A program made the translations under genes and the position numbers. This document shows, in pieces, positions 1 to 28,710 of a DNA stretch of 61,736 bases (the stretch's first letter is position 1; every line of letters begins with the position of its first letter). Origin of the DNA: an uncultured Saprospiraceae bacterium. GTDB lineage: Bacteria > Bacteroidota > Bacteroidia > Chitinophagales > Saprospiraceae. The notes beneath the pieces are model-generated. The model saw only the letters and a list, made by a program, of their open reading frames with translations, had not been told where the DNA came from and did no database searches. The stretch lies in assembly GCA_937923345.1 (NCBI GenBank), contig CAKZVJ010000033.1, forward strand, positions 1 to 61,736. The letters run 5' to 3'.

Positions 1-3000
1 ACTGTCGACCCTGTCAATGATGTGCCTGTATTGACTCCAGTTGTCATTACTCCTTTACCTGAAGATAGTGTGATTGTTATCTGTACTCCTTTTGCAGATC
101 CTGATATGGGCGACACTTTCACTTCTAGTGTGTGTGAGGAAGCCGATAATGGATCCACTACTACTGCTATCGTAAATGGCGAACTTTGTTTGACTTACGA
201 ACCAGACATGAATTTCAATGGATTGGATTCTATGTGCATCATGGTATGTGATCAGGTCGGAGCTTGCGATAGTACTATCGTTACTATTGAAGTGACTCCG
301 GTCAACGATCAGCCTGTTGCTGTGGATGATAATGTTGCGACGCAAGAAGATAATACTATCAGTATTGATGTTCAAGATAATGACTCTGATGTCGATGGCG
401 ATGACTTGACTACTTCTATTATCGGAACTAGTTCTCAAGGTGTCACTCCTACTGTCGAAGTTGATGGAAGCATTAGCTATACTCCACCTTTGGATTTTGT
501 AGGTACGGATACCATTACTTATGAAGTATGTGATAATGGCAATCCTGTGCTTTGCGATACTGCTATCGTTGTAGTCACTGTAGACCCTATCAATGATGTA
601 CCCGTATTGACTCCAGTTGTCATTACTCCTCTACCTGAAGATAGTGTGATTGTTATCTGTCCTCCTTTTGCAGATCCTGATATGGGCGACACTTTCACCT
701 CTAGTATTTGTGATGAGGCGGATAGTGGAACCTCTACTACTGCTATCGTAAATGGCGAACTTTGTTTGACTTACGAACCAGACATGAATTTCAATGGATT
801 GGATTCTATGTGCATCATGGTTTGTGATCAAGTTGGTGCTTGCGATAGTACTACCCTTACTATTGAAGTGACTCCGGTCAACGATCAACCTGTTGCTGTG
901 GATGATAATATTTCTACACAAGAAGATAATACTATCAATATTGATGTTCAAGATAACGACTCTGATGTCGATGGCGATGACTTGACTACTTCTATTATCG
1001 GAACTAGTACTCAAGGCATCACTCCTACTGTCGAAGTTGACGGAAGCATTAGCTATACCCCACCGATGGATTTTGTAGGTACTGATACTATTACTTATGA
1101 AGTATGTGATAATGGCAATCCTGTGCTTTGCGATACTGCAATCGTTGTCGTCACTGTCGATCCTATCAATGATGTGCCCGTATTAACTCCAGTTGTAATT
1201 ACTCCTTCACCTGAAGATAGTGTGATTGTTATCTGTACTCCTTTTGAAGATCCAGATATGAGCGACACTTTCACCTCTAGTATTTGTGAGGAAACCGATA
1301 ATGGAACCGCTACTACTGCTATCGTTAATGGTGAACTTTGTGTAACCTATGAACCAAACATGGATTTCAATGGATTGGATTCTATGTGCATCATGGTATG
1401 TGATCAAGTTGGAGCTTGCGATAGTACTACCCTTACTATTGAAGTGACTCCAGTCAACGATCAGCCTGTTGCTATGGATGATAGTGTTGCTACCCAAGAA
1501 GATAATGCTATCAGTATTGATGTTCAAGATAACGACTCCGATGTCGATGGCGATGATTTGACTACTTCTATTATCGGAACTAGTACTCAAGGTGTCACTC
1601 CTACTGTCGAAGTTGATGGAAGCATTAGCTATACTCCATCTTTGGATTTTGTAGGTATCGATACCATTACTTATGAAGTATGTGATAATGGCAATCCTGT
1701 TCTTTGCGATACTGCTATCGTTGTCGTCACTGTAGACCCTATCAATGATGTGCCCGTATTGACTCCAGTTATCATTACTCCTTTACCTGAGGATAGTGTG
1801 ATTGTTATTTGTACGCCTTTTGCAGATCCTGATATGGGAGACACTTTCACCTCTAGTGTGTGTGAAGAATCCGATAATGGAACCGCTACTACATCTATTG
1901 TAAATGGTGAGCTTTGTGTAAGCTATGAACCGGACGTGGATTTCAATGGATTGGATTCTATGTGCATCATGGTTTGTGATCAAGTCGGAGCTTGCGATAG
2001 TACTATCCTTACTATTGAAGTGACTCCGGTCAACGATCAGCCTGTTGCTGTGGATGATGTCGCCATAACAGTAGAAGATCAGTCTACCCCTGTAGATGTT
2101 CAACTGAATGACTCTGACGTAGATGGAGATATACTAAGCACAAGTGTTATCAATGTTAGCACTGGTCAAGCCATTGTATTTAATGCTGATAATATCCTTT
2201 ACATACCTGCGCCAAACTTTGTAGGTATAGATACAGTAACTTATCAAGTATGTGACAATGGAGCACCAGTGCTTTGTGATACTGCCATAGTACTAATATC
2301 AGTAGAGCCAGTAAATGACTCCCCTGTATTAACTCCGATTGACGTTACACCTGTTCTTGAAGATAGCATCAATGTTGTTTGTACTACATTTTCAGACATT
2401 GATATGGGAGATAGTTTTACATCTAACATTTGCAATGATGCAGAAAATGGATCAACCTCTATTTCAATTGAAAATGGGGAACTGTGCCTCACCTATGAAC
2501 CTAACAAAGACTTCAATGGTATTGATTCAATTTGCATAATGGTTTGCGATCAATCTGGAGCTTGTGATAGTACTACTGTTACGTTTGAAGTAACACCAGT
2601 AAATGATAGTCCTATTGCCCTTGATGATAATGAATCTCTAGTAAACTCTAGTGAAACTGTGATTGACGTACAAGCCAATGATTTTGATGTCGATGGTGAT
2701 GTGCTAACTACAACTATTCTAAACCTAGCATCTATACAAGGTACAGCCCTAGTATTAAATGGGGATAGTATTTCGTATTCAGCACCTTTAAACTATGAAG
2801 AGATTGACACAATAGTATATCAAGTTTGCGATAGTGCAAGTCCAACTCTCTGTGATACTGCCGTAGTAATTATAGAAGTTGAACTAGATATTTGTCAGAT
2901 ACTTGAAAATGAGCCAAGTCATCCAATAGGTGAAGAAGACTATGATGGTGGCGGGGTAAGCAATGCCACAGAATGTGAGAACGGTAATGACCCTAAAAAC

Positions 3001-5511
3001 GATAGTGATGATCTTGCTATCTTAGAAGGATTTGTTTGGGTGGACACCAATAGTGATGGAATACAAGATCCAGAAGAAGCTGGCGAAGAAAATGTAACCG
3101 TATACCTAATTGATAGAGCTGATGAATTTGATTCAGGCAACCCTACCAGACAGGCAAACGGAGATACATTAGATGTGACTTTAACCGACATTAATGGAAA
3201 GTTTACTTTCATTGATGTAGAAAGTGGTCTATATCAAGTTGCGTTTGACGCTTCTACGAGCTTGTATGGTGACGACTACAATTATACCATTCAAGATCAG
3301 GGTTTAGAGATTGAAGATAGCGACGCAAATTCTTCTGGAACAACTGACATATTTGATTTTGACGCTGGCGATCCAATGGGGTCTTCTATTTCTGCAGGAC
3401 TTTCTCTACAACCTAGAGTTGGAAACGTTATATGGATTAATCAGGCCTACGAAAATGAAGATGGCTATATCGAAGTTAATATGTCTATCGGTGTTAGAAA
3501 TACTGGAGTAGTACCATTGACGGATGTTGCTTTGTCAAATGATATGTCTCATTTAGAATCAGGTTTTATAGGAATAAAAAATCAACCTAGCATCGCGAGT
3601 TCAAGTGTATTGAACCCACCTCAAGTTAATTCAAACTATGACGGTATCAATAGTCTAGAAATTTTTGCCCCAGCTAGTAATGTAAGATTAGAAATAGAAG
3701 AAGAAGTTACTATTTCATTAACTGCAATATTCGACCCTCAAGAGATCGAATTCCCAGTGATGGTACAGTCTTCAGTAAACGCAATCGGTAGAGATAAAAA
3801 TGGAGAGCCATTTACAGATATAAGCGGTGCTACAAAGATGGCGTTAGATTTATCTGATTCTGGACAGCTTTATGAAGATACCAATTCTGGTGAACCAGGA
3901 GATACTGGTTCATCTGACGATGGTACTTCAATAAATTGCTTTGATGCTAAGCTTGAAATAGTTGGAAATGACAATGTACTTTGTATTGGTGATGAAGTCA
4001 CATTAGAAGTTAACTCATCATTTAAGAGTGTAAGTTATAAATGGACAATAATGGGCGAAGATGAGATTATTTCCACTTCGAATGAAAACACCTTCTTTCC
4101 AGGTCAGTCTACAACTTATGTGGTGACAGCATCATCGGACCATAATACATGTTTGTTTAATGCAAGAGATACAGTAGAAGTAATAGTAAGTGATGCCTTG
4201 AGTGCAAACATTACTAACAATGGTACAGACTGTAATGCTCAAGGTGCATCAATAGAGTTGAACAGTAACTTAAGTGGCGGAACGGCTCCATTTGTGTACC
4301 AATGGACTGGACCTAATGGGTTTATTTCAACACAAGCAAGCCCTTCACTTATATTAAACGATGAGGAAGTTAATGGAATATATACAGTTGAAATTCGAGA
4401 TGCGAATGGATGTACCCTTAGTGGAGAAACTACGCTTGACATTAAATTCACTCCGGATGATCCAGATGTATTTACAGAACAAGCAGTTTGTGAAGGTAGT
4501 GACATTATCCTAAGTGTTAATAATCCGAACCCAGAACAACTGTATAGATGGTATAGAAGCACAGACAATAGTGAAGTTGGACAAGGTGCATTACTAACTA
4601 TTCCAAATGCTACCCAAAGTGAAGAGGGAGGATACTATGTGACAGCTAATACAAGTAGCTGCTCTTCGAATAACTCTAACATTGTTGACGTGGTGGTTGA
4701 TGAACATTCGAGTGAAATAGCCATTGCCGGCACTGATGAGTTTGTTTGTGAAGATAACTTTACACTTACTGCGTCACCAATCAATATTGGAGAAGGTAGA
4801 TGGGTAAATATCAATACTACCGCAACATTATTGAGTCCAAATGAATCACAAACAGTGGTAACTGGTCTTCAGGTTGGTGAAAATCAATTTGCTTGGCATG
4901 TCAGCAATGGAGCATGTGTAGATACTTCTATTGATACCATCAATATCACTTATGACTTAACACCTACTGCGCAAGATGACATTTATGCGACTGAGCTTAA
5001 TCAAACGTTAGTTGAAAACGTCCTAGACAATGATTCACCTAATACAAAAGAATTTACCTTAAGCAGCTTTGTAGAGCCGCAAAATGGAGAACTTGAATTA
5101 GATAATGATGGTGTATTTAGATACACTCCAAATCCAAACTTTGTTGGAACGGATAGCTATCAATATGAATTGTGCCATCTTTATTGTCCAGACAAATGTG
5201 TTGAGGCCACTGTGTTCATTACAATTGGTGAAAATGCAGAATGTTTCGCTCCTACTATAATGACTCCCAATGAAGATGGTATCAATGATACATTTGTAAT
5301 TCCTTGCCTCAATAATTTTACAGATAGCCACATGTGCATATTCAATAGATGGGGTGATGAAGTATTTAGTGTTGCGGACTACAAGAACGACTGGGATGGT
5401 ACAAATCAGTTCAACGGAGAAACATTACCGAGTGGCACCTACTTCTATCAACTAAGAGTGAACGATGGAAATGACACTGTAATGGCTGGATACATTTATG
5501 TACAGCGATAA
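1..5511 (+). CDS. Giant repeat adhesin with T9SS type B C-terminal domain (5' partial)
   Basis: The reading frame is open from base 1, so this is the last 1,836 residues of a larger secreted surface protein. The N-terminal two thirds are repeated pairs of about 95-residue Ig/cadherin-like folds; one fold begins around VPVLTPVVITP, the other carries QPVAVDD, DNDSDVDGDDL and FVGTDTITYEVCD. A calcium-binding-like DYDGGG...NDPKNDSDD stretch and an SdrD-B-like domain (bases about 3010-3410) follow, then more Ig-like modules and a last cadherin-like fold (about 4970-5230). The end, from CFAPTIMTPNEDGINDTF to the stop, matches the gliding-motility type B sorting domain: a NEDGINDTF motif, FNRWG and a PSGTYFYQL strand. 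Families of this kind are exported by T9SS and act in adhesion or gliding. The PorP/SprF-like gene lies 44 bases downstream, as expected for a type B substrate. The start lies outside the window. Confidence 0.93.
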   Translation, partial: TVDPVNDVPVLTPVVITPLPEDSVIVICTPFADPDMGDTFTSSVCEEADNGSTTTAIVNGELCLTYEPDMNFNGLDSMCIMVCDQVGACDSTIVTIEVTPVNDQPVAVDDNVATQEDNTISIDVQDNDSDVDGDDLTTSIIGTSSQGVTPTVEVDGSISYTPPLDFVGTDTITYEVCDNGNPVLCDTAIVVVTVDPINDVPVLTPVVITPLPEDSVIVICPPFADPDMGDTFTSSICDEADSGTSTTAIVNGELCLTYEPDMNFNGLDSMCIMVCDQVGACDSTTLTIEVTPVNDQPVAVDDNISTQEDNTINIDVQDNDSDVDGDDLTTSIIGTSTQGITPTVEVDGSISYTPPMDFVGTDTITYEVCDNGNPVLCDTAIVVVTVDPINDVPVLTPVVITPSPEDSVIVICTPFEDPDMSDTFTSSICEETDNGTATTAIVNGELCVTYEPNMDFNGLDSMCIMVCDQVGACDSTTLTIEVTPVNDQPVAMDDSVATQEDNAISIDVQDNDSDVDGDDLTTSIIGTSTQGVTPTVEVDGSISYTPSLDFVGIDTITYEVCDNGNPVLCDTAIVVVTVDPINDVPVLTPVIITPLPEDSVIVICTPFADPDMGDTFTSSVCEESDNGTATTSIVNGELCVSYEPDVDFNGLDSMCIMVCDQVGACDSTILTIEVTPVNDQPVAVDDVAITVEDQSTPVDVQLNDSDVDGDILSTSVINVSTGQAIVFNADNILYIPAPNFVGIDTVTYQVCDNGAPVLCDTAIVLISVEPVNDSPVLTPIDVTPVLEDSINVVCTTFSDIDMGDSFTSNICNDAENGSTSISIENGELCLTYEPNKDFNGIDSICIMVCDQSGACDSTTVTFEVTPVNDSPIALDDNESLVNSSETVIDVQANDFDVDGDVLTTTILNLASIQGTALVLNGDSISYSAPLNYEEIDTIVYQVCDSASPTLCDTAVVIIEVELDICQILENEPSHPIGEEDYDGGGVSNATECENGNDPKNDSDDLAILEGFVWVDTNSDGIQDPEEAGEENVTVYLIDRADEFDSGNPTRQANGDTLDVTLTDINGKFTFIDVESGLYQVAFDASTSLYGDDYNYTIQDQGLEIEDSDANSSGTTDIFDFDAGDPMGSSISAGLSLQPRVGNVIWINQAYENEDGYIEVNMSIGVRNTGVVPLTDVALSNDMSHLESGFIGIKNQPSIASSSVLNPPQVNSNYDGINSLEIFAPASNVRLEIEEEVTISLTAIFDPQEIEFPVMVQSSVNAIGRDKNGEPFTDISGATKMALDLSDSGQLYEDTNSGEPGDTGSSDDGTSINCFDAKLEIVGNDNVLCIGDEVTLEVNSSFKSVSYKWTIMGEDEIISTSNENTFFPGQSTTYVVTASSDHNTCLFNARDTVEVIVSDALSANITNNGTDCNAQGASIELNSNLSGGTAPFVYQWTGPNGFISTQASPSLILNDEEVNGIYTVEIRDANGCTLSGETTLDIKFTPDDPDVFTEQAVCEGSDIILSVNNPNPEQLYRWYRSTDNSEVGQGALLTIPNATQSEEGGYYVTANTSSCSSNNSNIVDVVVDEHSSEIAIAGTDEFVCEDNFTLTASPINIGEGRWVNINTTATLLSPNESQTVVTGLQVGENQFAWHVSNGACVDTSIDTINITYDLTPTAQDDIYATELNQTLVENVLDNDSPNTKEFTLSSFVEPQNGELELDNDGVFRYTPNPNFVGTDSYQYELCHLYCPDKCVEATVFITIGENAECFAPTIMTPNEDGINDTFVIPCLNNFTDSHMCIFNRWGDEVFSVADYKNDWDGTNQFNGETLPSGTYFYQLRVNDGNDTVMAGYIYVQR
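25..2322 (+). repeat. Tandem 576-bp coding repeats in the adhesin
   Basis: The phrase encoding VPVLTP recurs at bases 25, 601, 1177 and 1753, exactly 576 bases apart, and again at 2323 after 570. Units 1-3 and the first half of unit 4 are nearly identical even at silent positions; the second half of unit 4 and unit 5 have diverged. Each unit encodes 192 residues, two Ig-like folds. The silent-site identity points to recent duplication or gene conversion. Confidence 0.95.
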
Positions 5512-5555: not shown

Positions 5556-6509
5556 ATGATAAAAAAGTTAAATATATCAGTCATTTTAATGCTATTCACC
5601 CTGTTGAGCCTAGAGGCTCAGCAGGATGCACAGTACACTCAATGGATGTTCAACAAATTGAGTATTAATCCTGGATATGCCGTAAGTGGGGAACACAGCT
5701 GCTTTTCTGGACTACACAGATCTCAATGGGTAGGTTTAGAAGGAGCTCCAATAAATCAATCCTTTAATGCTAGAGTACCCATACAGGGAAAAAACATTGG
5801 CGTTGGTCTATCCGTTAATCATGATATTATTGGCCCCACAAATTCATGGACCGTAAGCGGAATCTATGCTTATAAATTTGATTTCGGTAAGGGTAAAAAA
5901 CTTGGAATAGGTCTTCAAGCAACTGCAAGAAATTACCGTATCAATTTTTCAGAAACTAGCGCGATTACACCAGGTGATGGTACAATACCTACTACGGACC
6001 AAGCTCGAATAATGCCAAATTTTGGGGCAGGATTATATTATTATACTCCTAAATACTACGTAGGCATTTCTGCTCCAAGACTATTAGAAAACGACTTAAC
6101 ACTCTTCAATACCAATCTAACTAGTTCAGATTTTTCTAGGGAGGAGATACATGCCTATCTTATGACAGGTGCAGTAATTACTTTAAATGATATACTTAAG
6201 CTAAAGCCGTCATTATTAGTAAAATATGTAAAAGATGCTCCGATAGACTTTGATTTACATACGAGCGTAATTTTTTACGACGCGTTTTGGGCAGGACTCA
6301 CCTATCGCATAGGTGGCTTCGATGGAAGCCTAGGAGAATCCCTTGACTTAGTACTTCAAGTTCAAATAAATAGACAAATTCGATTAGGTTTTGCATATGA
6401 CTATTCTCTAAGCAAAATTAGAGATACCAATAGTGGAACTTTTGAACTTGTATTGGACTACTGTCTAAAGCCTGATAATGTAAATCTAACTAACCCTAGA
6501 TTCTTTTAA
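5556..6509 (+). CDS. PorP/SprF family T9SS outer-membrane protein
   Basis: The 317-residue product has a signal peptide (residues 1-21, ending LSLEAQ) followed by the family opening QDAQYTQWMFNKLSINPGYA and alternating beta-strand, glycine-rich sequence typical of an outer-membrane barrel. PorP/SprF proteins assist secretion or surface attachment of T9SS substrates with type B C-terminal domains; SprF for SprB in Flavobacterium is the known example. It sits 44 bases after the adhesin and 18 bases before an OmpA/PD40 gene, so the three probably form one transcript. I infer that its client is the upstream adhesin. Many paralogues usually exist per genome, so a specific symbol is not justified. 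Confidence 0.92.
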   Translation: MIKKLNISVILMLFTLLSLEAQQDAQYTQWMFNKLSINPGYAVSGEHSCFSGLHRSQWVGLEGAPINQSFNARVPIQGKNIGVGLSVNHDIIGPTNSWTVSGIYAYKFDFGKGKKLGIGLQATARNYRINFSETSAITPGDGTIPTTDQARIMPNFGAGLYYYTPKYYVGISAPRLLENDLTLFNTNLTSSDFSREEIHAYLMTGAVITLNDILKLKPSLLVKYVKDAPIDFDLHTSVIFYDAFWAGLTYRIGGFDGSLGESLDLVLQVQINRQIRLGFAYDYSLSKIRDTNSGTFELVLDYCLKPDNVNLTNPRFF

Positions 6510-6527
6510 TTTCAAACCCATTAGAAC

Positions 6528-8663
6528 ATGAAAAATATCAAAAAAATCATCTCAGCATTGTTTGTGCTGCTTATCTCTGGATATACTATGGGACAAAGTA
6601 ACAAAACTGCGCTTAGCGTATACAAAAAACATGGATACAGAGCTTCTATACCTTTGCTAGAAAAATCAGCAGCAAACTCAATTGAAAACAAAGAAAAAAT
6701 TGCTAACAGCTATCGACTCAATCATGATACCGAAAATGCCGAAATATGGTATCAGCAAATAATAGACAATACCTCTGACCCTATTCATTATCTCCATTAT
6801 GCGCAGGTACTACAAAGTAATGAAAAATTTGCTCTTGCAGATCAATATTATTCGATGTATGAGCAAGAAACGGGTGATGCAAGATTTACTGATCGTAAAA
6901 CCATTACAGGAGTTGATAAACAGAATACAAATAATCATTCTGTAAGGGTTAAAAATATCCCAGAAATTAATTCAGAAAAAATAGAATATAGTCCATATTA
7001 TTTTGAAGATCAGCTAATCTTTCTCTCAAATAGATTTGATAAACATTTATCAACAGGGATTGCTGATTTATGGACAGATGATAATTTTATGTCGATTTGG
7101 ACAGCTAAGATAAGCGAAGATGGCTCTTTAGGTACTCCTGCTCCATTGTCTATGAAACTAAATTCTAAATACAACGAAGGCCCTGCTTGTATCAGTAGAG
7201 ATGGTGATAAAATCTTTTTTACTAGGAATAATTATCATAATGGAAAGAGAAAAAATAATTCAGAAGGGGTAATGAAATTATCTATTTATAGTTCTGTTAA
7301 AAAAGGAAATGACTGGAGCGAACCAAAGTCCATTAATTTAAATACGGAAGAATACGATGAAGCACATCCTAGTATCAGTTACAATGGAGATCGTCTTATC
7401 TTTAGTTCTGATCGTAAAGGTGGATTTGGAGGCATGGATCTTTACTATAGTGATTTTGTAAATGGAAGTTGGAGAGAACCAATAAATCTAGGCCCTGAAA
7501 TTAATACTCCAGGAAATGATGTATTCCCTTATATTCATAAAGATGGTACTCTTTATTATGCATCTAATGGAAGATTGGGATACGGAGGTTTGGATTTATA
7601 TCAAGCGAAGAAAGATGAGAATAAAGATTGGACCCAAGTTACCAATATGGGTGCTCCATTTAATTCTCCTAAAGATGATTTTGCGATGGTGATGAATGAA
7701 TCAAAAACAGAAGGATTTCTCAGTTCAGCTAGACTAGGCGGATTAGGTAAGGATGACATTTACTCTTTTCAAAGCGAGCAGCCAATAGACGCCTTTCAAA
7801 CAAAAGGTAAAAAAGATACGCCTACTACTATAGTCAAGGCTAAGATAAGTGTTCCACAAAATGAATCAAAAACAATACAAACAGAATTGGCATCAGAGGA
7901 TACAAAATTAAGTAGTACACATAAAGTAAAATCTCCAGAGCTATCCATGGATAATACTTCCGACTCAAATAGTGATCGGGTACAAAGTAGTATTACATCA
8001 GAATTAAAGTCTGATATCACTAAAACATCAAATAGCGATTTGAATACTGCAAAAGAACTAAATCTAGACGCATCAAGCGATAGTGATATAACTGAGGATA
8101 AGAGTAATACAAATAACAACAATGCCTTGGTAAAAGCTAATACCTTAGAAGACAATTCATTAACCAGAAACAAAATCAATAGCTCAAGAGGTAAAGAAGA
8201 AGATAAATCTAACAAGGCAGACATAATAGAGTTACCCTATGTGTACTATGATTTCAATTCATCTTATCTGAGAAATGATGTAAAAGATAATTTTTCAAAT
8301 GTGATTAGTTTTATGAAGGAAAACCCTAATATAAAAATTGAATTAAGATCACATTCTGATTCTAGAGGAAGTGCCTCATATAATTTGATGTTATCGCAAA
8401 AAAGAGCAGAATCATTAGTAAAGTATTTAATTGCGCAAGGAATCGATTCTGAAAGGTTAGTTGCCAAAGGATATGGAGAAACTCAGCTCAAAAACAAATG
8501 CGGTGACTACAGTAATTGTTCTGAAGAAGAACATCAGTCCAATCGAAGAACAGAGATTCGAATAATCGGGAACAATGAAAACACAATGGTAATCAAACAA
8601 CTAAATAATCCACCTCAAAAAGTAGACAAAGCAAACCCAAATAGAAAATGGGACTGGAATTAA
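6528..8663 (+). CDS. OmpA-family protein with TPR and PD40 beta-propeller (PorE-like)
   Basis: The 711-residue protein has a signal peptide (1-22, GYTMGQ), a TPR-like helical region (about 25-130), and a WD40-like PD40 propeller (about 150-415) with repeated ISRDGDKIFF, ISYNGDRLIFSS and IHKDGTLYYAS strands. A low-complexity Ser/Asp/Asn/Lys linker (about 420-560) leads to a C-terminal OmpA peptidoglycan-binding domain (about 568-680; YYDFNSSYLR, HSDSRGS, SQKRAESL, GYGE, NRRTEIRI). This resembles the T9SS component PorE, but without an obvious carboxypeptidase-regulatory domain. Such proteins are thought to tie outer-membrane T9SS parts or adhesins to the cell wall. Last gene of the adhesin cassette; a terminator hairpin follows. 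Confidence 0.9.
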   Translation: MKNIKKIISALFVLLISGYTMGQSNKTALSVYKKHGYRASIPLLEKSAANSIENKEKIANSYRLNHDTENAEIWYQQIIDNTSDPIHYLHYAQVLQSNEKFALADQYYSMYEQETGDARFTDRKTITGVDKQNTNNHSVRVKNIPEINSEKIEYSPYYFEDQLIFLSNRFDKHLSTGIADLWTDDNFMSIWTAKISEDGSLGTPAPLSMKLNSKYNEGPACISRDGDKIFFTRNNYHNGKRKNNSEGVMKLSIYSSVKKGNDWSEPKSINLNTEEYDEAHPSISYNGDRLIFSSDRKGGFGGMDLYYSDFVNGSWREPINLGPEINTPGNDVFPYIHKDGTLYYASNGRLGYGGLDLYQAKKDENKDWTQVTNMGAPFNSPKDDFAMVMNESKTEGFLSSARLGGLGKDDIYSFQSEQPIDAFQTKGKKDTPTTIVKAKISVPQNESKTIQTELASEDTKLSSTHKVKSPELSMDNTSDSNSDRVQSSITSELKSDITKTSNSDLNTAKELNLDASSDSDITEDKSNTNNNNALVKANTLEDNSLTRNKINSSRGKEEDKSNKADIIELPYVYYDFNSSYLRNDVKDNFSNVISFMKENPNIKIELRSHSDSRGSASYNLMLSQKRAESLVKYLIAQGIDSERLVAKGYGETQLKNKCGDYSNCSEEEHQSNRRTEIRIIGNNENTMVIKQLNNPPQKVDKANPNRKWDWN

Positions 8664-10320: not shown

Positions 10321-10450
10321 TCATTGATAAAAAAAATGAAAATTACTTTTTTTGTCTCTCAAAATAAATAAGATCGATATATCTAATTAGCAATATCATT
10401 ATAAATTACTTCCATTTTATTTTTTTTGAGCTAGCGCTGTGCAGTAGTGG

Positions 10451-10636
10451 CACCCTTGTATAGTAGGTTGCTTTTTTTTTGCAACCTGCTATACAAGGGT
10501 GACAGTCCAAGAGCCGGCCTTTTTCAGGCAGGTTCGCAGGACTGAGCGAACAGCGAACTACGGAACATAGCGACGCCAGTGATACTGTCGAAGCCTTTTC
10601 GGCGAAGGCAGCATCACTGGGGTAGATCCCAAATAA
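10451..10636 (+). repeat. Structured intergenic element, copy 1
   Basis: Hairpin 1 (10451-10501) pairs two 21-base arms around a run of T. Then come AGTCC (10504-10508), a small hairpin, GGACTGAGCGAACAGCGA (from 10539) and ACATAGCGACGCC, hairpin 3 (10576-10620, CCAGTGAT / ATCACTGG), and CCCAAATAAAA. It ends about 60 bases upstream of a TATCTTG box and 100 before the ptrB start. The spacer 10321-10450 before it holds nothing I can identify. Confidence 0.75.
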
Positions 10637-10698
10637 AACTACTCTACTTTGACGCCAAATAATTACCACTGAAATGTATCGAATAACTTAAGATGCAC

Positions 10699-10705
10699 TA
10701 TCTTG
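10699..10705 (+). promoter_or_regulatory. Candidate -7 box for ptrB
   Basis: TATCTTG resembles the Bacteroidota -7 consensus TAnnTTTG, lacking one T. It is 31 bases before the ptrB ATG. No good -33 TTG is visible at the usual spacing. Confidence 0.4.
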
Positions 10706-10736
10706 CTGGACCAAATAAAATGTATAATAAAAGAAG

Positions 10737-12815
10737 ATGAAAGAATCAGAAATGTTTGACAAGGTGGCGATGGATGCGCCGGTGGCCAAAAAAATAGCAA
10801 AGGAAATGACCATCCATGGTGACACGCGTGTGGACGACTATTACTGGATGAATCAAAGGGAAGATCAGGCGGTGATAGATCATCTGAATGCAGAGAATGC
10901 GTATAAGGATGCGATGCTTGCGCACACTGTAGATTTTCAAGAAAAGTTGTTTGAGGAAATAAAAGGAAGAATCAAGCAAACGGATATGTCGGTGCCGGTG
11001 ATGAAAAATGGATATTCTTATCGGACTAGGTTTGAAGAGGGAAAAGAATATCCAATCTATGCGAGAAATAAAGGTAGCAAAGATGGGCCAGAAGAAATCT
11101 TGCTAGATGTAAATGTGTTGGCTGAAGGATACGACTATTTTAAAGTAGCTTCAAGATCAGTGAGTGAGGACAATAAAATATTGGCCTATGGCGAGGATAC
11201 AGTAAGTAGACGCATCTACACCATAAGGTTTAAAAATTTAGAGACTGGAAAAATGTTGAGCGACGTTATACCCAACACAACAGGTAACGCTGTTTGGGGA
11301 AATGACAACAATACGATTTTCTACACGATGAAGGACGAAACCTTGAGAGCGTATAAAGTCTATAGGCATATCTTGGGTAGCGATCCGAGTCAAGATGAAT
11401 GTGTGTATCATGAAAAAGATGACACCTACAATGTATATTGCTGGAAAAGTAAATCCAAAAAATATATCATGATTGGTTCTTTTGCAACTTTAGCATCTGA
11501 GTATAGAACATTGGATGCCGATCAACCAAGAGGTACGTTTGAAATTTTTCAGGAACGAGACTATGCCAATAAATTAGAGTATACGGTGACGCACTATGAA
11601 GACAAATTTTATGTGCGCACAAATAAGAATGCGAACAATTTCCGGCTGATGGAGACCCCCATCGGTGCGACTGGCCAAGAAAATTGGACGGAAGTAATCG
11701 CGCATCGAGATGATGTTCTGCTCGAAGGAGTAGAAGTTTTTAAGGACTTCATGGTGCTCTCAGAACGTGTCAAAGGGAACACAAACTTGCGCGTGATAAA
11801 ATTTTCTGGCGAAGACTTCAATATCAAATTTGCTGATAGCGCTTACTATGCGTATACCTCGACAAATCCAGAATTTGACACTCACTTATTGCGGATTGGG
11901 TACACTAGTTTGACTACCCCCAACAGTACCTATGACTTCGATGTCAATACTTCTAAAATGGAATTGCTAAAGCAGCAAGAAGTACTCGGCGATTTTAGTG
12001 CGGATGAATATACTTCTGAAAGAGTCTTTGCCAAAGCCCGAGACGGCGTAGAAGTCCCAATCAGTATAGTGTATAAAAAAGATACCGAATTAGGCGCCTC
12101 TACTCCACTCTTGCTATATGGTTATGGCTCTTATGGCAACAGTATGGATCCATATTTTTCAAGTGCTAGGTTGTCCTTATTGGATAGAGGATTTGTATTT
12201 GCTATTGCGCATATACGAGGTGGTGAAGAGATGGGAAGACAATGGTATGACGATGGCAAACTTCTGAAAAAGAAAAATACTTTTTATGATTTTATTGATT
12301 GTGCAGAATTTTTGATCACCAATAATTATACTTCTAAGGATCAACTGTACGGCTTGGGTGGTAGTGCTGGCGGTTTGCTGATGGGTGCAGTTATAAACAT
12401 GCGTCCTGATCTTTGGAAAGGCATCATCTCTGCGGTTCCTTTTGTGGATGTAGTGACGACTATGCTGGATGAATCCATCCCACTGACTACGGGAGAATTT
12501 GACGAATGGGGCAATCCGAAGGTCGAGGAATATTATCATTACATAAAATCTTATTCGCCCTACGATAATATTGAGGCGAAAGACTATCCCGCTATGATGG
12601 TGACAACCGGACTGCATGATAGTCAAGTCCAATACTGGGAGCCGGCCAAGTGGGTAGCCAAGTTAAGAGAGATGAAAACTGACCAAAATCCACTGCTGAT
12701 GCACTGCAATATGTCTACAGGGCACGGGGGTGCTTCAGGACGTTTTGAACGGTTTAAAGAGACGGCGATGGAGTATGCTTTTTTTCTGGATTTAGCAGGG
12801 AAAATGGACGCTTAA
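10737..12815 (+). CDS. ptrB: Oligopeptidase B (S9A serine peptidase)
   Basis: The 692-residue product has the S9A layout: an N-terminal beta-propeller region (about 70-410, opening with DDYYWMNQREDQAVIDHLNAEN) and a C-terminal alpha/beta-hydrolase domain. The visible catalytic triad is Ser543 in GGSAGG, Asp628 in GLHDSQV and His663 in GHGG. Oligopeptidase B cleaves small peptides after Arg or Lys, usually in the cytoplasm. There is no signal peptide, consistent with a cytosolic enzyme. The length matches the family (about 690). It is monocistronic, preceded by a structured intergenic element and closed by a hairpin shared with the convergent glycosyltransferase gene. A second S9A enzyme at 41852 is a lipoprotein, so the two act in different compartments. 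Confidence 0.92.
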   Translation: MKESEMFDKVAMDAPVAKKIAKEMTIHGDTRVDDYYWMNQREDQAVIDHLNAENAYKDAMLAHTVDFQEKLFEEIKGRIKQTDMSVPVMKNGYSYRTRFEEGKEYPIYARNKGSKDGPEEILLDVNVLAEGYDYFKVASRSVSEDNKILAYGEDTVSRRIYTIRFKNLETGKMLSDVIPNTTGNAVWGNDNNTIFYTMKDETLRAYKVYRHILGSDPSQDECVYHEKDDTYNVYCWKSKSKKYIMIGSFATLASEYRTLDADQPRGTFEIFQERDYANKLEYTVTHYEDKFYVRTNKNANNFRLMETPIGATGQENWTEVIAHRDDVLLEGVEVFKDFMVLSERVKGNTNLRVIKFSGEDFNIKFADSAYYAYTSTNPEFDTHLLRIGYTSLTTPNSTYDFDVNTSKMELLKQQEVLGDFSADEYTSERVFAKARDGVEVPISIVYKKDTELGASTPLLLYGYGSYGNSMDPYFSSARLSLLDRGFVFAIAHIRGGEEMGRQWYDDGKLLKKKNTFYDFIDCAEFLITNNYTSKDQLYGLGGSAGGLLMGAVINMRPDLWKGIISAVPFVDVVTTMLDESIPLTTGEFDEWGNPKVEEYYHYIKSYSPYDNIEAKDYPAMMVTTGLHDSQVQYWEPAKWVAKLREMKTDQNPLLMHCNMSTGHGGASGRFERFKETAMEYAFFLDLAGKMDA

Positions 12816-22737: not shown

Positions 22738-22775
22738 AAAAAAGGCTAGCTTCGATTGAAGCTAGCCTTTTTAGG
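22738..22775. terminator. Terminator between pdhA and the P-domain operon
   Basis: AAAAAGGCTAGCTTC and GAAGCTAGCCTTTTT form a 15-base stem with a 4-base loop. A and T tracts flank both sides, so it can end both convergent units. Confidence 0.9.
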
Positions 22776-22818: not shown

Positions 22819-23763
22819 TTAAGCCACATAATTTTCTAAAGCTTCTTTGGCCAACTGTCGCATCTGATCGATGTTTACATCTTTCATATCAACTTTAGCT
22901 TTTTCAAGTACCTCTTTCAACTTATTAGGTGTAGAACTAGCTAACTTAGAAAATGAATTGATACCTGCAGTCTCCAAGGCTTTCTTAGCATTGCTATTCA
23001 CACCTTTAATGTTTAGCAAGTTGTCCACTGGTTCGTAATCCATAAACAACTTCCATTTGCGCAGTTTACCTACTTTAGTGTTGCCATCAAAATCTTGAAC
23101 TGACAACTTCCAAGTTCCATTTGTGCGTTCACCAGAAAAAGCTTTAGTAGAATTGGTGTCATAAGTCGTCTGCATGTACTTACCATCACCAGATTTATCA
23201 TGTAAAGTGATTGACTTTCCAGAAGGAGAAGACAACTTTACCACTAAATCTTTCTTATTGGGATGGTCAATATCTACGAGCACTTTCATTGCACTCACTG
23301 TTCCATTAAATCTGCAAAACTGATTACTTACTAAAGTTTCTGCTTTAGCGTTGTTTGTAAACACTTCATTAGGGCAATTTGCTCCAGGCTTGCAACCAAC
23401 ATTCAGAGACCAGTTATTTAATACAGATACGTTCTTATTAGAATGGTTTTTAGCAATTAGCTTCCATCTTCCCTTTGAGGTTGCTCCAACTAAGGAACTC
23501 AAATTTTGTCCTTCAAATGTTTTACGAAACGGAGTAGGCGCAACAGCGGCATTGGTATTTCCTTTAGCTTGTAAGGAAATCGATTTACCGTTTGGAGCCA
23601 CTAGTTCCAATTGGATATCGTCAGGATTTGCATTTTTAATATCTACATCTACTGAGATATTCTCAATATTACCTTCTTTAAGTACTTCTACTGTAGAAGT
23701 CAAGCCGTTATGGTCGCTAGGAATTCTTGAGTTTACTCTTACCTCCTTATGTAATCTAAACAT
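22819..23763 (-). CDS. Double P-domain protein with degenerate HhH-like C-terminus
   Basis: The 314-residue product contains two proprotein-convertase P-domain-like sandwiches. The first (about 15-125) has NISVDVDIKNANPDDIQLEL, APNGKSISL and GRWKLIAKNH; the second (about 145-240) has VLVDIDHPNKKDLVVKL, SPSGKSITL, NGTWKLSVQD and GKLRKWKL. The last 70 residues (LLNIKGVNSNAKKALETAGINSFSKLA) align with the helix-hairpin-helix module of its operon neighbours but lack the MHDPGSWP block. There is no signal peptide; the protein opens MFRLHKEVRVNSRIPS. P-domains are usually found in secreted proteases, so a protease-free, signal-less version is odd. Last gene of a four-gene operon. Function unknown. 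Confidence 0.8.
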   Translation of the reverse strand: MFRLHKEVRVNSRIPSDHNGLTSTVEVLKEGNIENISVDVDIKNANPDDIQLELVAPNGKSISLQAKGNTNAAVAPTPFRKTFEGQNLSSLVGATSKGRWKLIAKNHSNKNVSVLNNWSLNVGCKPGANCPNEVFTNNAKAETLVSNQFCRFNGTVSAMKVLVDIDHPNKKDLVVKLSSPSGKSITLHDKSGDGKYMQTTYDTNSTKAFSGERTNGTWKLSVQDFDGNTKVGKLRKWKLFMDYEPVDNLLNIKGVNSNAKKALETAGINSFSKLASSTPNKLKEVLEKAKVDMKDVNIDQMRQLAKEALENYVA

Positions 23764-23838
23764 ATATCTTTATTGAATTATTTTTTTTAAATTTTTGACT
23801 GCTGTCAAGAATGCATTGTGAATGAATTTGCAAATTTC

Positions 23839-24816
23839 CTATTTGCCTCCCATCAATTCATCTTGCAGTTTTTCTAACTTCTCCCATTCGTTTTTAAAAG
23901 CAAGATTAGATTGTCTTGGCCAAGACCCTGGATCATGCATTTGAAATCTGGGACCTGCATTGTTGAGCACCTTTTTGAGGCGGGGAACATCGGCTTCTGC
24001 CAACTTTCTAAAAGTCTCGATACCATCTCTATTCAATAGTGCCTCTATTTTCGGACCTATGCCTTCAATTTTTTTCAAGTCATCCTTTTGGATGGACATA
24101 AATAACTTCCACTTGCGTAACTTTCCGATACGCGAATTCCCTTCGGCGTCATTAACAGATAACTTCCAAGTACCATGAGCGGGCTGGCCAACTAGTGCTT
24201 TAGTCACATTATTTTCGTACGTGTTTTGTCCAAACTCACCATTTCCAGCTTTGTCGTGCAAGGTAATTGTTTTGCCAGTTGGTGATAATAACTGGACGGT
24301 TAAGTTTTTCTGATTTGGGTGGTCAATATCTACCATTACCTTCATCGCTCCTACTGTACCATCATACTTACAAAACTGCTCACTATTTAAAATTTCTTTA
24401 TCTGCATTTTTTGTAAATACTTCGTTTGGACAATTTTCTTTTGCTTGACAGCCAAAGTCAATAGACCAATTATTCAGAACACTCTGAGAATTATTTGCGT
24501 GATTTTTTGCAATCAGAGTCCATCGTCCTTTAGAAGGAGCACCATGCATCGGCTTTAAAGAATCTCCTTTGAAAGATTGACTATAAGCAGATGGAGCTCC
24601 AAAAGAACCCGATTTTCCTTGCTTTAATGTTACCGATTTACCATTAGGAGCAACCAGATCCAAATGCAGATTATCAGCCGAAGCATTTTTAATGTTTACA
24701 TCTACAGACAGATTCTCTATATTTCCTTCTTTTAAAACTTCTACAAAAGAAGTTAAGCCATTTTGATTAGCTGGAATACCACTATTAATTCTAGCTTCTT
24801 TGCGTAATTTAAACAT
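23839..24816 (-). CDS. Double P-domain protein with HhH/MHDPGSWP module
   Basis: The 325-residue protein is a paralogue of the next gene, with the same opening (MFKLRKEARINSGIP, then NGLTSFVEVLKEGNIENLSVDV). It has two P-domain-like sandwiches (about 15-125 and 145-238), then a C-terminal module of about 85 residues: DDLKKIEGIGPKIEALLN (helix-hairpin-helix), a second helical pair, MHDPGSWPRQSNLA and KLEKLQDELMGGK. The same module ends the 738-residue repeat protein encoded just upstream. There is no signal peptide or membrane segment. The shared module suggests that the operon products bind a common partner or one another. Function unknown; P-domain and HhH assignments are by motif only. Confidence 0.82.
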   Translation of the reverse strand: MFKLRKEARINSGIPANQNGLTSFVEVLKEGNIENLSVDVNIKNASADNLHLDLVAPNGKSVTLKQGKSGSFGAPSAYSQSFKGDSLKPMHGAPSKGRWTLIAKNHANNSQSVLNNWSIDFGCQAKENCPNEVFTKNADKEILNSEQFCKYDGTVGAMKVMVDIDHPNQKNLTVQLLSPTGKTITLHDKAGNGEFGQNTYENNVTKALVGQPAHGTWKLSVNDAEGNSRIGKLRKWKLFMSIQKDDLKKIEGIGPKIEALLNRDGIETFRKLAEADVPRLKKVLNNAGPRFQMHDPGSWPRQSNLAFKNEWEKLEKLQDELMGGK

Positions 24817-24898
24817 AGATATAGGAATTTTAATGAGATTAAAAAATAGGCTAGACAGTAGCAGTTGCTACTGTCTAGCTATGCTGACGATATCTTAT

Positions 24899-27115
24899 TT
24901 ATCTACCGCCTTGTAGTTTATCCTGCAGCTTATCGAGTTTCTTCCACTCCCCTTTTGCCGCAAGATTGGATTGCTTTGGCCATGAACCTGGATCATGCAT
25001 TCTGAATCTAGAACCAGCGTCATCAAGAATTTTTCTTAATCTGCTCACCTTAGCATCTGCTAATTGCTTCCACGTCATAATTCCATCTTTATTCAACAAT
25101 TGCTCAATCTTAGGTCCGATTCCTTCAATCTTCTTTAAGTCATCCTTTTTAGATTTTGCAACTGTAGCTTTCTTCTTTGGTGCCGCTTTAGCTTTTACCT
25201 TGGTAGTCGTCTTAGATTTAGATGTAGACTTTTTGGTAGCTTTTTTATTGCTTCCAGCCTTTACTTCTCTTCTTTCTACTACTTTAGCTCCTTTAGCAGT
25301 TCTTGTTTCACCAACGACTTGCTTAGAAACAACCTCTGTGTTCATATTCATCATCATACTCTTAAGCGAATCAAAGTCAATTTGCTTAACTACCTCTACT
25401 TCTTTGACGATTTCAATTGGTACTTCTTTTATAACCTCAATCTCTCTAATGACTTCTACTTCTTTCGGCTTCTTAGCCAATTCTTTTTCAAGTCTTGAAT
25501 TCTCCTTTTTTATAGAAGAAGCTTTGGAGTCTAGATCTTTGTACTTGGCTTTCCACTTATTGAGTTCTTTATCGTTAACTACTTCTTTTGTAACAATCTT
25601 TTCAACCTCAACTTTTACAGGAACTTCCTTAATAACTTCAACTTCTTTTGGCTTTTTAGCCAATTCTTTGTTTAACTTATTAATTTGAGCTTCGTACGTT
25701 TTACCGGCATCAGAAAGTGTCTTAATACGTTGATTAGCTGCAATCATTTTGCCATCGAGATCTCCGAATTTAGCTTTCCACTTATTCAGCTCTTTCTCAT
25801 TTACTACCTCCTTGATTACTTCTACTTCCTTGATTACTTCTACAGGCACCTCTTTGGTTACCACTTTTTCTACTTCTTTGATAACTTCAACTGGTACTTC
25901 TACTTTTTTAATCACTTCCACCTCCTTAGGCTTCTTGTTAAGATCTTCGTTAAGTTTAGCAATTTGAGACTTGAAGTTGATAGCAGATTTATCTAAATCA
26001 GCTATTTTGTTGTTAACCGATTTGTGTTGGTCTTCCAGTTCAGAGTAACGCTTTCTCCACCTATTAACTTCGTCTTCATTGACAACTTCTTTGATGACTT
26101 CAACAGGTACTTCTACCTTCTTTTCAACAATCTTTTCTACTTCTTTGATTACTTCTACAGGCTTTTCAACAATCTTTTCGATTTCAATTTCTTTAATGAC
26201 CTCGAAAGGGACTTCCTTAGTGACAATCTTTTCTACCTCTTTGATTACTTCTACTGGTACTTCTACTTTCTTTTCAACAATCTTTTCTACCTCTTTGATT
26301 ACTTCGACAGGTACTTCTACCTTCTTTTCAACAATCTTTTCTACAATCTTTTCTACTTCTTTAATCACTTCGACCTCCTTGATCACCTCTACAGGCTTCT
26401 CTACGATTTTCTCGATTTCGATTTCCTTAATTACTTCAACAGGAACCTCTTTAGTTACAATTTTTTCAACTTCTTTGATGACTTCAACAGGTACTTCCAC
26501 CTTCTTCTCAACGATCTTCTCTACCTCCTTCAGCACTTCTACAGGAACCTCTACTTCTTTGGTAACGATCTTTTCTACCTCCTTTATTACTTCCACCTCT
26601 TTGATCACTTCCACAGGCTTCTCTACGATCTTTTCTACTTCCTTGATCACTTCTACCTCTTTGATCACTTCTACAGGCTTCTCCACTATCTTTTCTACTT
26701 CCTTGATCACTTCTACTTCCTTAGGTTTTCTTGCTAAGTCAGCAGTTAAAGAGGCAATTTGAGACTTCCATCCAACACTAGATTTGTCTAAATCCATGAA
26801 CTTCATGTTGATAGATTTTTTCTCATTTTCTAAGTCTGCGTATTTCTTCTTCCACTTGTTCACTTCATCTTCGTTGACCACTTCCTTTATTACCTCTACT
26901 TCTTTGGTAACAATCTTTTCGATTGGTACATCCACGGGCTTACTCAATAAGCTAACGCCTTCTATTTCTTTTACAACCTCAACAGGTCTTTCTACAATTT
27001 TATCTTGGTATATTAATTTCTCTTTAGGTCGTCTTAATAACCAACCTATCCAGCCTCCTAAAAGGCCTAGCAATCCACCAAATAATAATGGTAACCAAAA
27101 ACACCATCCGAACAT
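24899..27115 (-). CDS. Membrane-anchored VEVIKE-repeat protein with HhH module
   Basis: The 738-residue product begins with a membrane segment (about 5-27, WLPLLFGGLLGLLGGWIGWLL) and a basic stop RRPKEK. Residues about 35-610 are dominated by runs built from VEVIKE, VEKIVEK and KPVEVIKEV, broken four times by heptad-like segments of 45-60 residues (for example NEDEVNKWKKKYADLENEK). A Lys/Ala/Thr-rich basic stretch (about 610-655, AAPKKKATVAKSKK) leads to the C-terminal DDLKKIEGIGPKIEQLLN...MHDPGSWPKQSNLA module (656-738). The VEVIKE runs step in sixes rather than sevens, so a plain coiled coil is doubtful. It may be a long fibre or spacer at the inner membrane. It follows the OmpA-like gene by 28 bases. 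Confidence 0.85.
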   Translation of the reverse strand: MFGWCFWLPLLFGGLLGLLGGWIGWLLRRPKEKLIYQDKIVERPVEVVKEIEGVSLLSKPVDVPIEKIVTKEVEVIKEVVNEDEVNKWKKKYADLENEKKSINMKFMDLDKSSVGWKSQIASLTADLARKPKEVEVIKEVEKIVEKPVEVIKEVEVIKEVEKIVEKPVEVIKEVEVIKEVEKIVTKEVEVPVEVLKEVEKIVEKKVEVPVEVIKEVEKIVTKEVPVEVIKEIEIEKIVEKPVEVIKEVEVIKEVEKIVEKIVEKKVEVPVEVIKEVEKIVEKKVEVPVEVIKEVEKIVTKEVPFEVIKEIEIEKIVEKPVEVIKEVEKIVEKKVEVPVEVIKEVVNEDEVNRWRKRYSELEDQHKSVNNKIADLDKSAINFKSQIAKLNEDLNKKPKEVEVIKKVEVPVEVIKEVEKVVTKEVPVEVIKEVEVIKEVVNEKELNKWKAKFGDLDGKMIAANQRIKTLSDAGKTYEAQINKLNKELAKKPKEVEVIKEVPVKVEVEKIVTKEVVNDKELNKWKAKYKDLDSKASSIKKENSRLEKELAKKPKEVEVIREIEVIKEVPIEIVKEVEVVKQIDFDSLKSMMMNMNTEVVSKQVVGETRTAKGAKVVERREVKAGSNKKATKKSTSKSKTTTKVKAKAAPKKKATVAKSKKDDLKKIEGIGPKIEQLLNKDGIMTWKQLADAKVSRLRKILDDAGSRFRMHDPGSWPKQSNLAAKGEWKKLDKLQDKLQGGR

Positions 27116-27143
27116 GTCTATATTTTTTTTAAGTTAGTTAATT

Positions 27144-28082
27144 TTATTTCTCAGTCAATCTTACCTCTACGCGTCTATTTTTCTTCCAAGCCGCTTCGTT
27201 ATTACCTCTGTCTACTGGTCTCTCTTCTCCGTATCCTACGACATTGATTTTATTCATAGAGATGCCGTATCTTCTTGACAATTCTTTTGCTGCAAAATTC
27301 GCTCTACCTTGAGATAATTTCTTGTTATAAGCAGCGTCTCCTCTATTGTCTGTATGACCAGATACATTCAGTCTAGCAGCAGGTGTTGCATCCATGTAGG
27401 CTTTGATGTCCTTCATGTCTTGCTTTTCTTTAGCTGATAATCTTAATTCATCTTTGTTGGTCCCGAAATAAATCGTCATGTCTTTACCTACCAAATTCTT
27501 TCCTGCAGCGACTGCTGTAGCGGCTCCAGCTAAATAAGATGTCGCTGATCTGGCCTTTAGATTTGACGTTCCAGAACCTTTAGGATAAAAAGTAAAGAAG
27601 GCCCCTCTACATAATGTATCGGAATGCACTACGTCTTCTCTTAGTACTTCTGAATCAACTTGCAATTGATCAGATGGTACACCCATCTTGGTTAATCTTG
27701 ATTTGACATCATTCGCTCTGGCGATACCGATGTTGGTGTTAGAATTAGCATTTTTCTCTACTGATTCGTATAAACCAGTAATTTTCAGCATTCTGTCTTT
27801 ATTTTTCTTAAGATAGTTTACTGTGCTGCTAATAGCATTTTGAAAATCCTCTCTATTGGAGGCTATACTCTTGGTCTCATTACGCTTGAATCTATAATAT
27901 CTGCTGGATTCAGCCCGGAAGGTTTCTCCATCATCGAACGCCCACGTGCCGCATGAATTGCTGGCAGCTACTGGAACTGCTGCTGGCACAACCCCACAAA
28001 AGGTCTTAGATATGTACCAAGCTCCAAGGAGCAACAATCCAATAAAGAGTAAGATTAGAATAATAATTAGTGGCTTATTCAT
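27144..28082 (-). CDS. Membrane-anchored tandem OmpA-like protein
   Basis: The 312-residue product has one N-terminal membrane segment (about 4-26) rather than a cleaved signal. A first OmpA-like domain (about 60-170) is degenerate (FQNAISSTVNYLKKNKDRMLKITG, NIGIARANDVKSRLTKMGVPSDQL). The second (about 190-312) is canonical: TIYFGTNKDEL, HTDNRGDAAYNKKLSQGRANFA, VVGYGEERP and NRRVEVRL, the peptidoglycan-binding fold. The layout resembles MotB or other inner-membrane proteins that grip the cell wall. It is the first gene of the four-gene operon (22819-28082) and is likely its cell-wall anchor; that role is inference. Confidence 0.88.
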   Translation of the reverse strand: MNKPLIIILILLFIGLLLLGAWYISKTFCGVVPAAVPVAASNSCGTWAFDDGETFRAESSRYYRFKRNETKSIASNREDFQNAISSTVNYLKKNKDRMLKITGLYESVEKNANSNTNIGIARANDVKSRLTKMGVPSDQLQVDSEVLREDVVHSDTLCRGAFFTFYPKGSGTSNLKARSATSYLAGAATAVAAGKNLVGKDMTIYFGTNKDELRLSAKEKQDMKDIKAYMDATPAARLNVSGHTDNRGDAAYNKKLSQGRANFAAKELSRRYGISMNKINVVGYGEERPVDRGNNEAAWKKNRRVEVRLTEK

Positions 28083-28533: not shown

Positions 28534-28710
28534 TGAAGGACTTTATCGATGAGCCTTTTAAGAGGGGCGTCGATAATGGCCTTCAGTCCTAGCTAAGGAT
28601 GTGCGCAGGCATGGACCGAGCGAAGAGCGAGATACATAGCATAGCGGCCATACTCTTTGCCAAAAAAGACTGGAAGGATGATGTGGCAAAGAGTATGGCA
28701 GGTCCCAAAA
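28534..28710 (+). repeat. Structured intergenic element, copy 2
   Basis: Hairpin 1 (28534-28585; TGAAGG / CCTTCA with inner TTATCGA / TCGATAA), AGTCC (28585-28589), GGACCGAGCGAAGAGCGA (from 28613), CATAGCATAGCGGCC, hairpin 3 (28648-28698; 15-base arms CCATACTCTTTGCCA / TGGCAAAGAGTATGG), then GTCCCAAAA. The next 240 bases hold only the promoter of the TPR gene. Confidence 0.78.

Follow-up and report, generated by a model that had tools for sequence, protein, structure and literature searches.

The window, that is, the whole stretch of DNA analysed here (61,736 nucleotides), is contig C33 of the 4.47 Mb draft genome of an uncultured Saprospiraceae bacterium, and its positions 22819-28082 are occupied by four adjacent minus-strand open reading frames (ORFs), encoding a tandem OmpA protein, a VEVIKE protein tethered by a transmembrane (TM) segment, and two P-domain proteins. 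The four-gene layout given in a preliminary description of this DNA was thus recovered in full. The features are listed below in the order in which the genes are read:

27144-28082, minus strand: gene 1, predicted inner-membrane OmpA protein, 312 residues (TM segment, divergent OmpA-like domain, canonical OmpA domain; Pfam, hhalign)
27588-27953, minus strand: divergent N-terminal OmpA-like domain (OMPN) of gene 1 (alignment, hhalign)
27147-27482, minus strand: canonical OmpA domain of gene 1 (Pfam, alignment)
24899-27115, minus strand: gene 2, TM-anchored arm protein, 738 residues (TM segment, four helical segments with VEVIKE linkers, KMM motif, basic linker, HhH module)
27035-27106, minus strand: TM helix of gene 2, residues 4-27, followed by RRPKEK
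26069-26725, minus strand: VEVIKE low-complexity stretch of gene 2, residues 131-349 (composition, shuffles, predicted disorder)
25295-25402, minus strand: KMM motif of gene 2
24902-25144, minus strand: HhH module of gene 2, residues 658-738
24850-24879, minus strand: intrinsic-terminator-like hairpin between genes 2 and 3 (fold z -6.5)
23839-24816, minus strand: gene 3, tandem P-domain-like beta-sandwiches and HhH module, 325 residues
23842-24084, minus strand: HhH module of gene 3, residues 245-325
22819-23763, minus strand: gene 4, paralogue of gene 3, 314 residues, with a degenerate HhH region and the MHDPGSWP half lost
22739-22772, minus strand: terminator-like hairpin at the cluster end, between convergent genes, scoring on both strands

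Genes 1 and 2 are separated by 28 bp. The hairpin between genes 2 and 3 consists of a 13-bp stem with a T-run and folds 6.5 SD better than its shuffles, and in a congener (G118) a hairpin with a T-run occupies the same position with a changed stem sequence. Since a general terminator scan showed no excess (4 sites against 4.0 expected), the case for termination at this point rests on the individual hairpin and its counterpart in the congener, and we read it as a putative conserved attenuator or terminator, so that the P-domain genes would probably be expressed at a different level. The four genes had been described as an operon; they do form a cluster on one strand, but the hairpin splits it, and a cluster with attenuation or with two transcription units is more probable than a simple operon. 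An Rfam search of the window returned no RNA family. The gap of about 870 bp upstream of gene 1 contains a perfect 16-nt inverted repeat at 28647-28699 (GCCATACTCTTTGCCA, 21-nt spacer), likewise without an Rfam match, and the left end of the window (22-5511) encodes a repetitive, cadherin-like protein of great length whose C-terminus is of gliding type, followed by PorP/SprF-like and PorE-like genes.

Gene 1 matches the Pfam OmpA family (PF00691) with an E-value of 1.5e-24 and 86.6 bits, against a gathering cut-off of 27.2, and its upstream OmpA-like domain is related to this canonical copy (hhalign probability 97%, E 1e-10), which confirms that the protein is a tandem OmpA protein whose first domain is divergent. 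The canonical domain contains D245 and R260 at the D-x14-R spacing expected of diaminopimelate-binding OmpA domains, which we take to be the equivalents of the diaminopimelate-binding Asp/Arg pair known from A. baumannii OmpA. Both wall-binding residues are kept in 13 of 13 aligned OmpA C-domains; the divergent N-terminal domain keeps the Arg (R122) and lacks the Asp. At several other loci (L049 5286-5768, L051 5380-5892, L204, L205 and L209 among them), short OmpA genes of 160-178 residues comprise the divergent N-terminal domain only. These short forms still adjoin an arm gene in spite of having no canonical wall-binding domain, and, judging from them, wall binding is not universal in the OmpA gene family. 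K/R counts alone do not decide the orientation of the OmpA protein, which follows here from taking the OmpA domain as periplasmic.

The four helical segments of gene 2 start at residues 79, 344, 437 and 512, each opening with the common motif VVNEDEVNKWKKKY..., and VEVIKE linkers lie between them. The main linker (residues 131-349) is 83% P, E, V and K, with G, A and S absent; V and I make up 43% and charged residues 49%, with 0% G and A, and acid-base dyads occur at 17.8 per 100, as against 11.4 +/- 2.0 in shuffles of the linker itself. AlphaFold, applied to the single chain here as for gene 3, models the linkers as coil with pLDDT below 35 and no strands, and the C-terminal module with pLDDT above 90, so that the VEVIKE stretch is predicted to be disordered. 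Such a composition recalls the epiplastins (alveolins, articulins) of protist membrane skeletons, which contain about 33% V and I and about 35% charged residues and nearly exclude G and A, and whose membrane-apposed medial domain of V, I, E and K, with acid-base dyads, is predicted as beta-strand or random coil; epiplastin-like proteins have already been noted in Caulobacter (PMC6212826). The gene 2 linker agrees with them qualitatively in composition, differing in a charge above the published range, in more E and K, in the absence of R, and in being a prokaryotic, TM-anchored coil without strands at pLDDT below 35. The resemblance is compositional, not one of homology, and gives no evidence of common descent. 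A fold search with the gene 2 model gave nothing at E <= 0.001, the weak matches to RadA-type and Pol iota HhH structures being limited to the C-terminus.

Genes 3 and 4 are paralogues (54% identity) with two P-domain stretches each (PF01483, E 1.7e-31 and 1.3e-33; 108.6 and 115.3 bits against a gathering cut-off of 21). The AlphaFold model of gene 3 (mean pLDDT 86) shows two beta-sandwiches and then a six-helix module with pLDDT above 90, and Foldseek matches the former to the P-domains of furin and of the Aeromonas serine protease (ASP) with a probability of 1.00, TM-scores over the whole query being low since one domain alone aligns. In contrast to P-domain proprotein convertases, neither protein has an S8/subtilase catalytic domain according to Pfam, and gene 3 has neither a signal peptide nor a TM segment. 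At E <= 1e-20, 197 other genomes of the class yielded no member of the P-domain subfamily, and a search for related loci with gene 3 alone as query returned nothing.

Genes 2 and 3 end in the same HhH module of 81 residues, identical at 58 of the 81 positions (E 1.9e-36), a likeness for which chance is not a plausible explanation. The module has an invariant GxGPK-type hairpin; in gene 4, this hairpin and the entire MHDPGSWP half are gone, and HHH_5 matches merely at 3.8e-4. The shared terminal module is thus that of genes 2 and 3, whereas in gene 4 the HhH region is degenerate. The genome contains 12 good copies of the module, of which two belong to the cluster described here, three to two further OmpA/TM pairs and one to an HU-like protein. 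The hosts of the others are ribosomal proteins S16 and L27, a complex III subunit of NrfD/ActC-like type, a protein resembling CBM48 and two minor ORFs. It is thus not a private handle of the cluster. A module found mainly in unrelated solitary proteins was named in the preliminary description as a second point that would count against it, and this is about half true. The module recurs inside the cluster, and it has many unrelated hosts.

In other genomes, the module is found on L21, L17, L20 and S1, with hosts assigned from their N-termini, and L27 spans the module in a single alignment in at least 22 of 61 genomes of the family. The full module is present in 9 of 149 genomes of the class, its own genome included, so that it is largely a Saprospiraceae habit within the class. 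Four class genomes (G189, G211, G234, G264) have it solely on a ribosomal protein and encode no TM-HhH protein, so that the module must have another partner there. The ribosomal and ActC copies are acidic (net charge -5 to -9) and the P-domain copies near neutral. C-terminal HhH extensions of ribosomal proteins were seen at L067 (5206-6156), L068 (10433-11155), L212, L214, L218, L219, L221 and L149; those of S16, L27, L21, L17, L20 and S1 occur in Saprospiraceae and a few other Bacteroidia and are acidic where measured. Moreover, a CBM48/AMPK-CBM-like glycogen-binding domain is fused to the module in several genomes (L072 5168-5839, L038, L045), and a glycogen synthase-like glycosyltransferase has a C-terminal HhH module (L147 4407-6101). 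The same HhH half (H3TH, COG3743-like) is found in proteobacterial L21, S2, NuoE and phasin PhaH (NCBIfam NF008916, NF008966, NF009040, NF045508), at the same C-terminal position on unrelated cytoplasmic proteins; the matches are far below the family cut-offs, with the module alone aligning, and here, in contrast, the module is part of a membrane-anchored, OmpA-linked system. The habit of C-terminal HhH extensions is thus already known from annotation, and no paper on its role was found: in open-access papers, nothing appeared on the Saprospiraceae module, on OmpA combined with HhH or on HhH on ribosomal proteins, and one COG3743 paper mentions it as a domain match only.

Related loci were retrieved with an alignment of the KMM motif and the HhH module, part profiles were built, and ORFs were parsed in the fetched loci, many of which come from draft metagenome-assembled genomes (MAGs). 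Among named relatives that have this cluster, the nearest is a MAG of an uncultured Saprospiraceae bacterium from the same genus (L075, CALIEI010000018.1), and in the congener comparison dN is 0.12-0.29 with synonymous divergence saturated. The recurrent order is an OmpA gene, then a TM-(VEVIKE/coil)-HhH gene, then often an HU-like-VEVIKE-HhH gene, a gene for a P-domain protein that may or may not carry the module, or both; the genome itself has three paralogous OmpA/TM-HhH pairs (C33, C117, C178). Within the HhH-selected set, OmpA and TM-HhH genes are neighbours in 46 of 51 cases (median gap 35 bp). The same-strand gene after the arm gene is of the HU-like-HhH type in 32 cases and of the P-domain type in 10. 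For a sample not skewed by retrieval through the module, the N-terminal OmpA-like domain alone was searched; it is present in 35 of 61 family genomes and 7 of 198 class genomes, its own genome included. A TM(-HhH) gene lies directly downstream on the same strand of 23 of the 28 well-scoring OmpA genes whose surroundings were read in this unselected sample, three of the 23 being cut by contig ends after the TM segment and before the HhH; two OmpA genes have it in divergent orientation and three stand alone. In two linked cases from beyond the family (L210, L211), the TM-HhH proteins are short, at 205 and 259 residues. With 25 of 28 unselected OmpA genes adjoining a TM-HhH gene, the genes are clearly co-conserved in relatives, contrary to the non-conservation that the preliminary description had named as counting against it. 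The OmpA/TM-HhH pair is thus the conserved core, to which the family adds the HU-like and P-domain genes as elaborations.

The HU-like type, a head followed by VEVIKE and HhH, is a further gene of relatives that is absent from the window's cluster. It shares with arm proteins the KMM motif (EVEVVKxIDFxSLxxMMxxMxTxxVSKxVVGETR), and its N-terminal helices align with the genome's own HU over about 30 residues (hhalign 82%). Full membership of the HU family was rejected: the best Pfam E-value against PF00216 is 0.056, the likeness ends after two helices, and the DNA-binding arms are absent.

Several lines of sequence evidence bear on the side of the membrane at which the module lies. Across 53 arm proteins, K/R counts are 0.5 before the TM segment and 2.6 within the 15 residues after it, and in two-TM variants of the arm the charges are at the N-terminus, with the C-terminus again predicted inside. 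The C-terminus of gene 2 is accordingly predicted to be cytoplasmic. TM-like or signal-peptide-like N-termini are absent from the P-domain and HU-like proteins, save for one HU-like ORF, and since ribosomal proteins carry the module, it does function in the cytoplasm. Because of the positive charges after the TM segment, the missing signal peptides and the ribosomal hosts, the side that bears the module is very probably cytoplasmic. A respiratory cluster of the same genome (C157) has a CoxB with an OmpA domain and an ActC with an HhH module; at this locus (L071, C157:10000-25600), the two ORFs are a cytochrome c oxidase subunit II-like protein with an OmpA ending and an ActC-like protein with HhH (5817-7322, 10346-12178). 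In another locus (L138), the OmpA domain is found on an ActE-like monohaem subunit instead of CoxB, and ActC again has HhH. This is a second, independent case of OmpA outside and HhH inside, as would be expected if both devices hold membrane complexes from both sides.

Our preferred reading, to which we assign a probability of roughly 0.5, is that the products of the locus make up a docking scaffold at the inner membrane, anchored to peptidoglycan. Gene 1 would sit in the inner membrane, with its OmpA domains extending into the periplasm and the second one binding peptidoglycan. Beside it, gene 2 would project a long arm of helical segments and extensible VEVIKE linkers into the cytoplasm, with the HhH docking module at the end, and genes 3 and 4 (in relatives, the HU-like protein) would be soluble cytoplasmic clients or cross-linkers. 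Module-bearing clients may come together with the arm either on a partner common to both or by contact between the modules themselves, and the outcome would be a tether or submembrane mesh that keeps cytoplasmic assemblies at the envelope. The genomes with ribosomal copies only speak against a simple tag-meets-tag model, since another partner is needed there, and they also weaken a homotypic ribosome-to-membrane tether as the sole role. Two further points count against the scaffold: the hairpin between genes 2 and 3 implies that the levels of genes 3 and 4 are uncoupled from those of genes 1 and 2, and gene 4 has lost most of its module.

No described counterpart of the gene set was found in open-access papers or family libraries, in agreement with the earlier statement that no such system was known. 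The closest layout is that of the HubP/FimV polar landmark proteins, in which a peptidoglycan-binding periplasmic domain, a TM segment, a long, low-complexity charged cytoplasmic region and a C-terminal docking domain follow each other (PMC12918733), that is, functions in the same order as in genes 1 and 2. HubP/FimV is one polypeptide with LysM and a TPR-type FimV domain, whereas here two adjacent genes supply OmpA and the HhH module: Pfam found LysM in neither gene 1 nor gene 2 (gene 1 gives OmpA), the C-terminus of gene 2 has the HhH module in place of a TPR-type FimV domain, and no sequence relation was found. Given the different domains and the division of roles between two genes, the relation is, by analogy, a likeness of layout and not membership; should the layout inference fail, the gene set would be without any known counterpart. 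Zorya ZorA/ZorB and MotA/MotB likewise combine an inner-membrane OmpA protein with a membrane partner whose cytoplasmic part is long. The match of gene 1 to ZorB profiles (E 1.7e-10) is confined to the generic OmpA domain, the gene 1 TM segment is without an acidic residue, gene 2 has a single TM segment instead of a MotA-type multi-TM ion channel, ZorC and ZorD are missing, and PADLOC gave no match for genes 2-4 or the HU-like protein. Since the generic OmpA domain alone matches, assignment to the Zorya/MotAB family was rejected.

Among the alternatives to the scaffold, ordinary domain shuffling, although unlikely, survives best. The module would then extend the C-termini of proteins throughout the family and act on each host separately, for instance on its stability or assembly, the OmpA/TM pair would be real and functionally separate from the P-domain genes, and module sharing among neighbours would imply no common partner. 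This is what the many unrelated hosts, the genomes with a ribosomal copy only and the hairpin between genes 2 and 3 suggest, as do the P-domain proteins that dispense with the module (L096, L100, L101, L107, L109, L135). Across many genera, however, genes of the OmpA, TM-HhH, HU-like-HhH and P-domain types are linked time and again, which is hard to account for without joint function, and the arm and HU-like proteins have the KMM motif in common besides HhH. We consider it quite improbable that the system fastens the nucleoid to the inner membrane as well as, via OmpA, to the wall, with HhH modules, lysine-rich linkers and HU-like heads binding nucleic acid. The invariant GxGPK-type hairpin, the HU-like helices, the K/S/A-rich linkers (one with a weak Hc2 histone match) and the weak RadA/Pol iota matches of the gene 2 C-terminus would fit such a chromosome tether, but the acidic ribosomal and ActC modules and the near-neutral P-domain modules weaken DNA tethering as the main reading, the HU likeness is confined to two helices without arms, and the window's own cluster has no HU-like gene. 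The multi-part envelope or surface structure of the preliminary description, with arms and P-domains outside the inner membrane, agrees with a wall-facing OmpA part and with the P-domains typical elsewhere of secreted proteases, but is very improbable given the positive-inside charges of gene 2, the absence of signal peptides and the ribosomal hosts, which make it doubtful on the module side.

The locus defines a conserved and apparently undescribed gene set that would connect the wall, the inner membrane and the cytoplasm in a large family of environmental bacteria. It also links up with a long-standing oddity, namely the same small HhH extension, of no known role, on ribosomal, respiratory and granule proteins: should the arm be one docking site of this extension, the function of the tag becomes testable, and likewise the placement of ribosomes and respiratory complexes. 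As a speculative extension of the scaffold, to which we give little credence, the HhH module might be a general Saprospiraceae address tag, carried by ribosomes (S16, L27, L17, L20, L21, S1), a complex III/oxidase supercomplex and glycogen-binding proteins and displayed by the wall-anchored OmpA/TM-arm scaffolds on their springy arms. All of these together might make up a cytoplasmic skeleton beneath the membrane, by which large machines are arranged at the envelope. If true, such an organisation of the bacterial cell would be without a described precedent.
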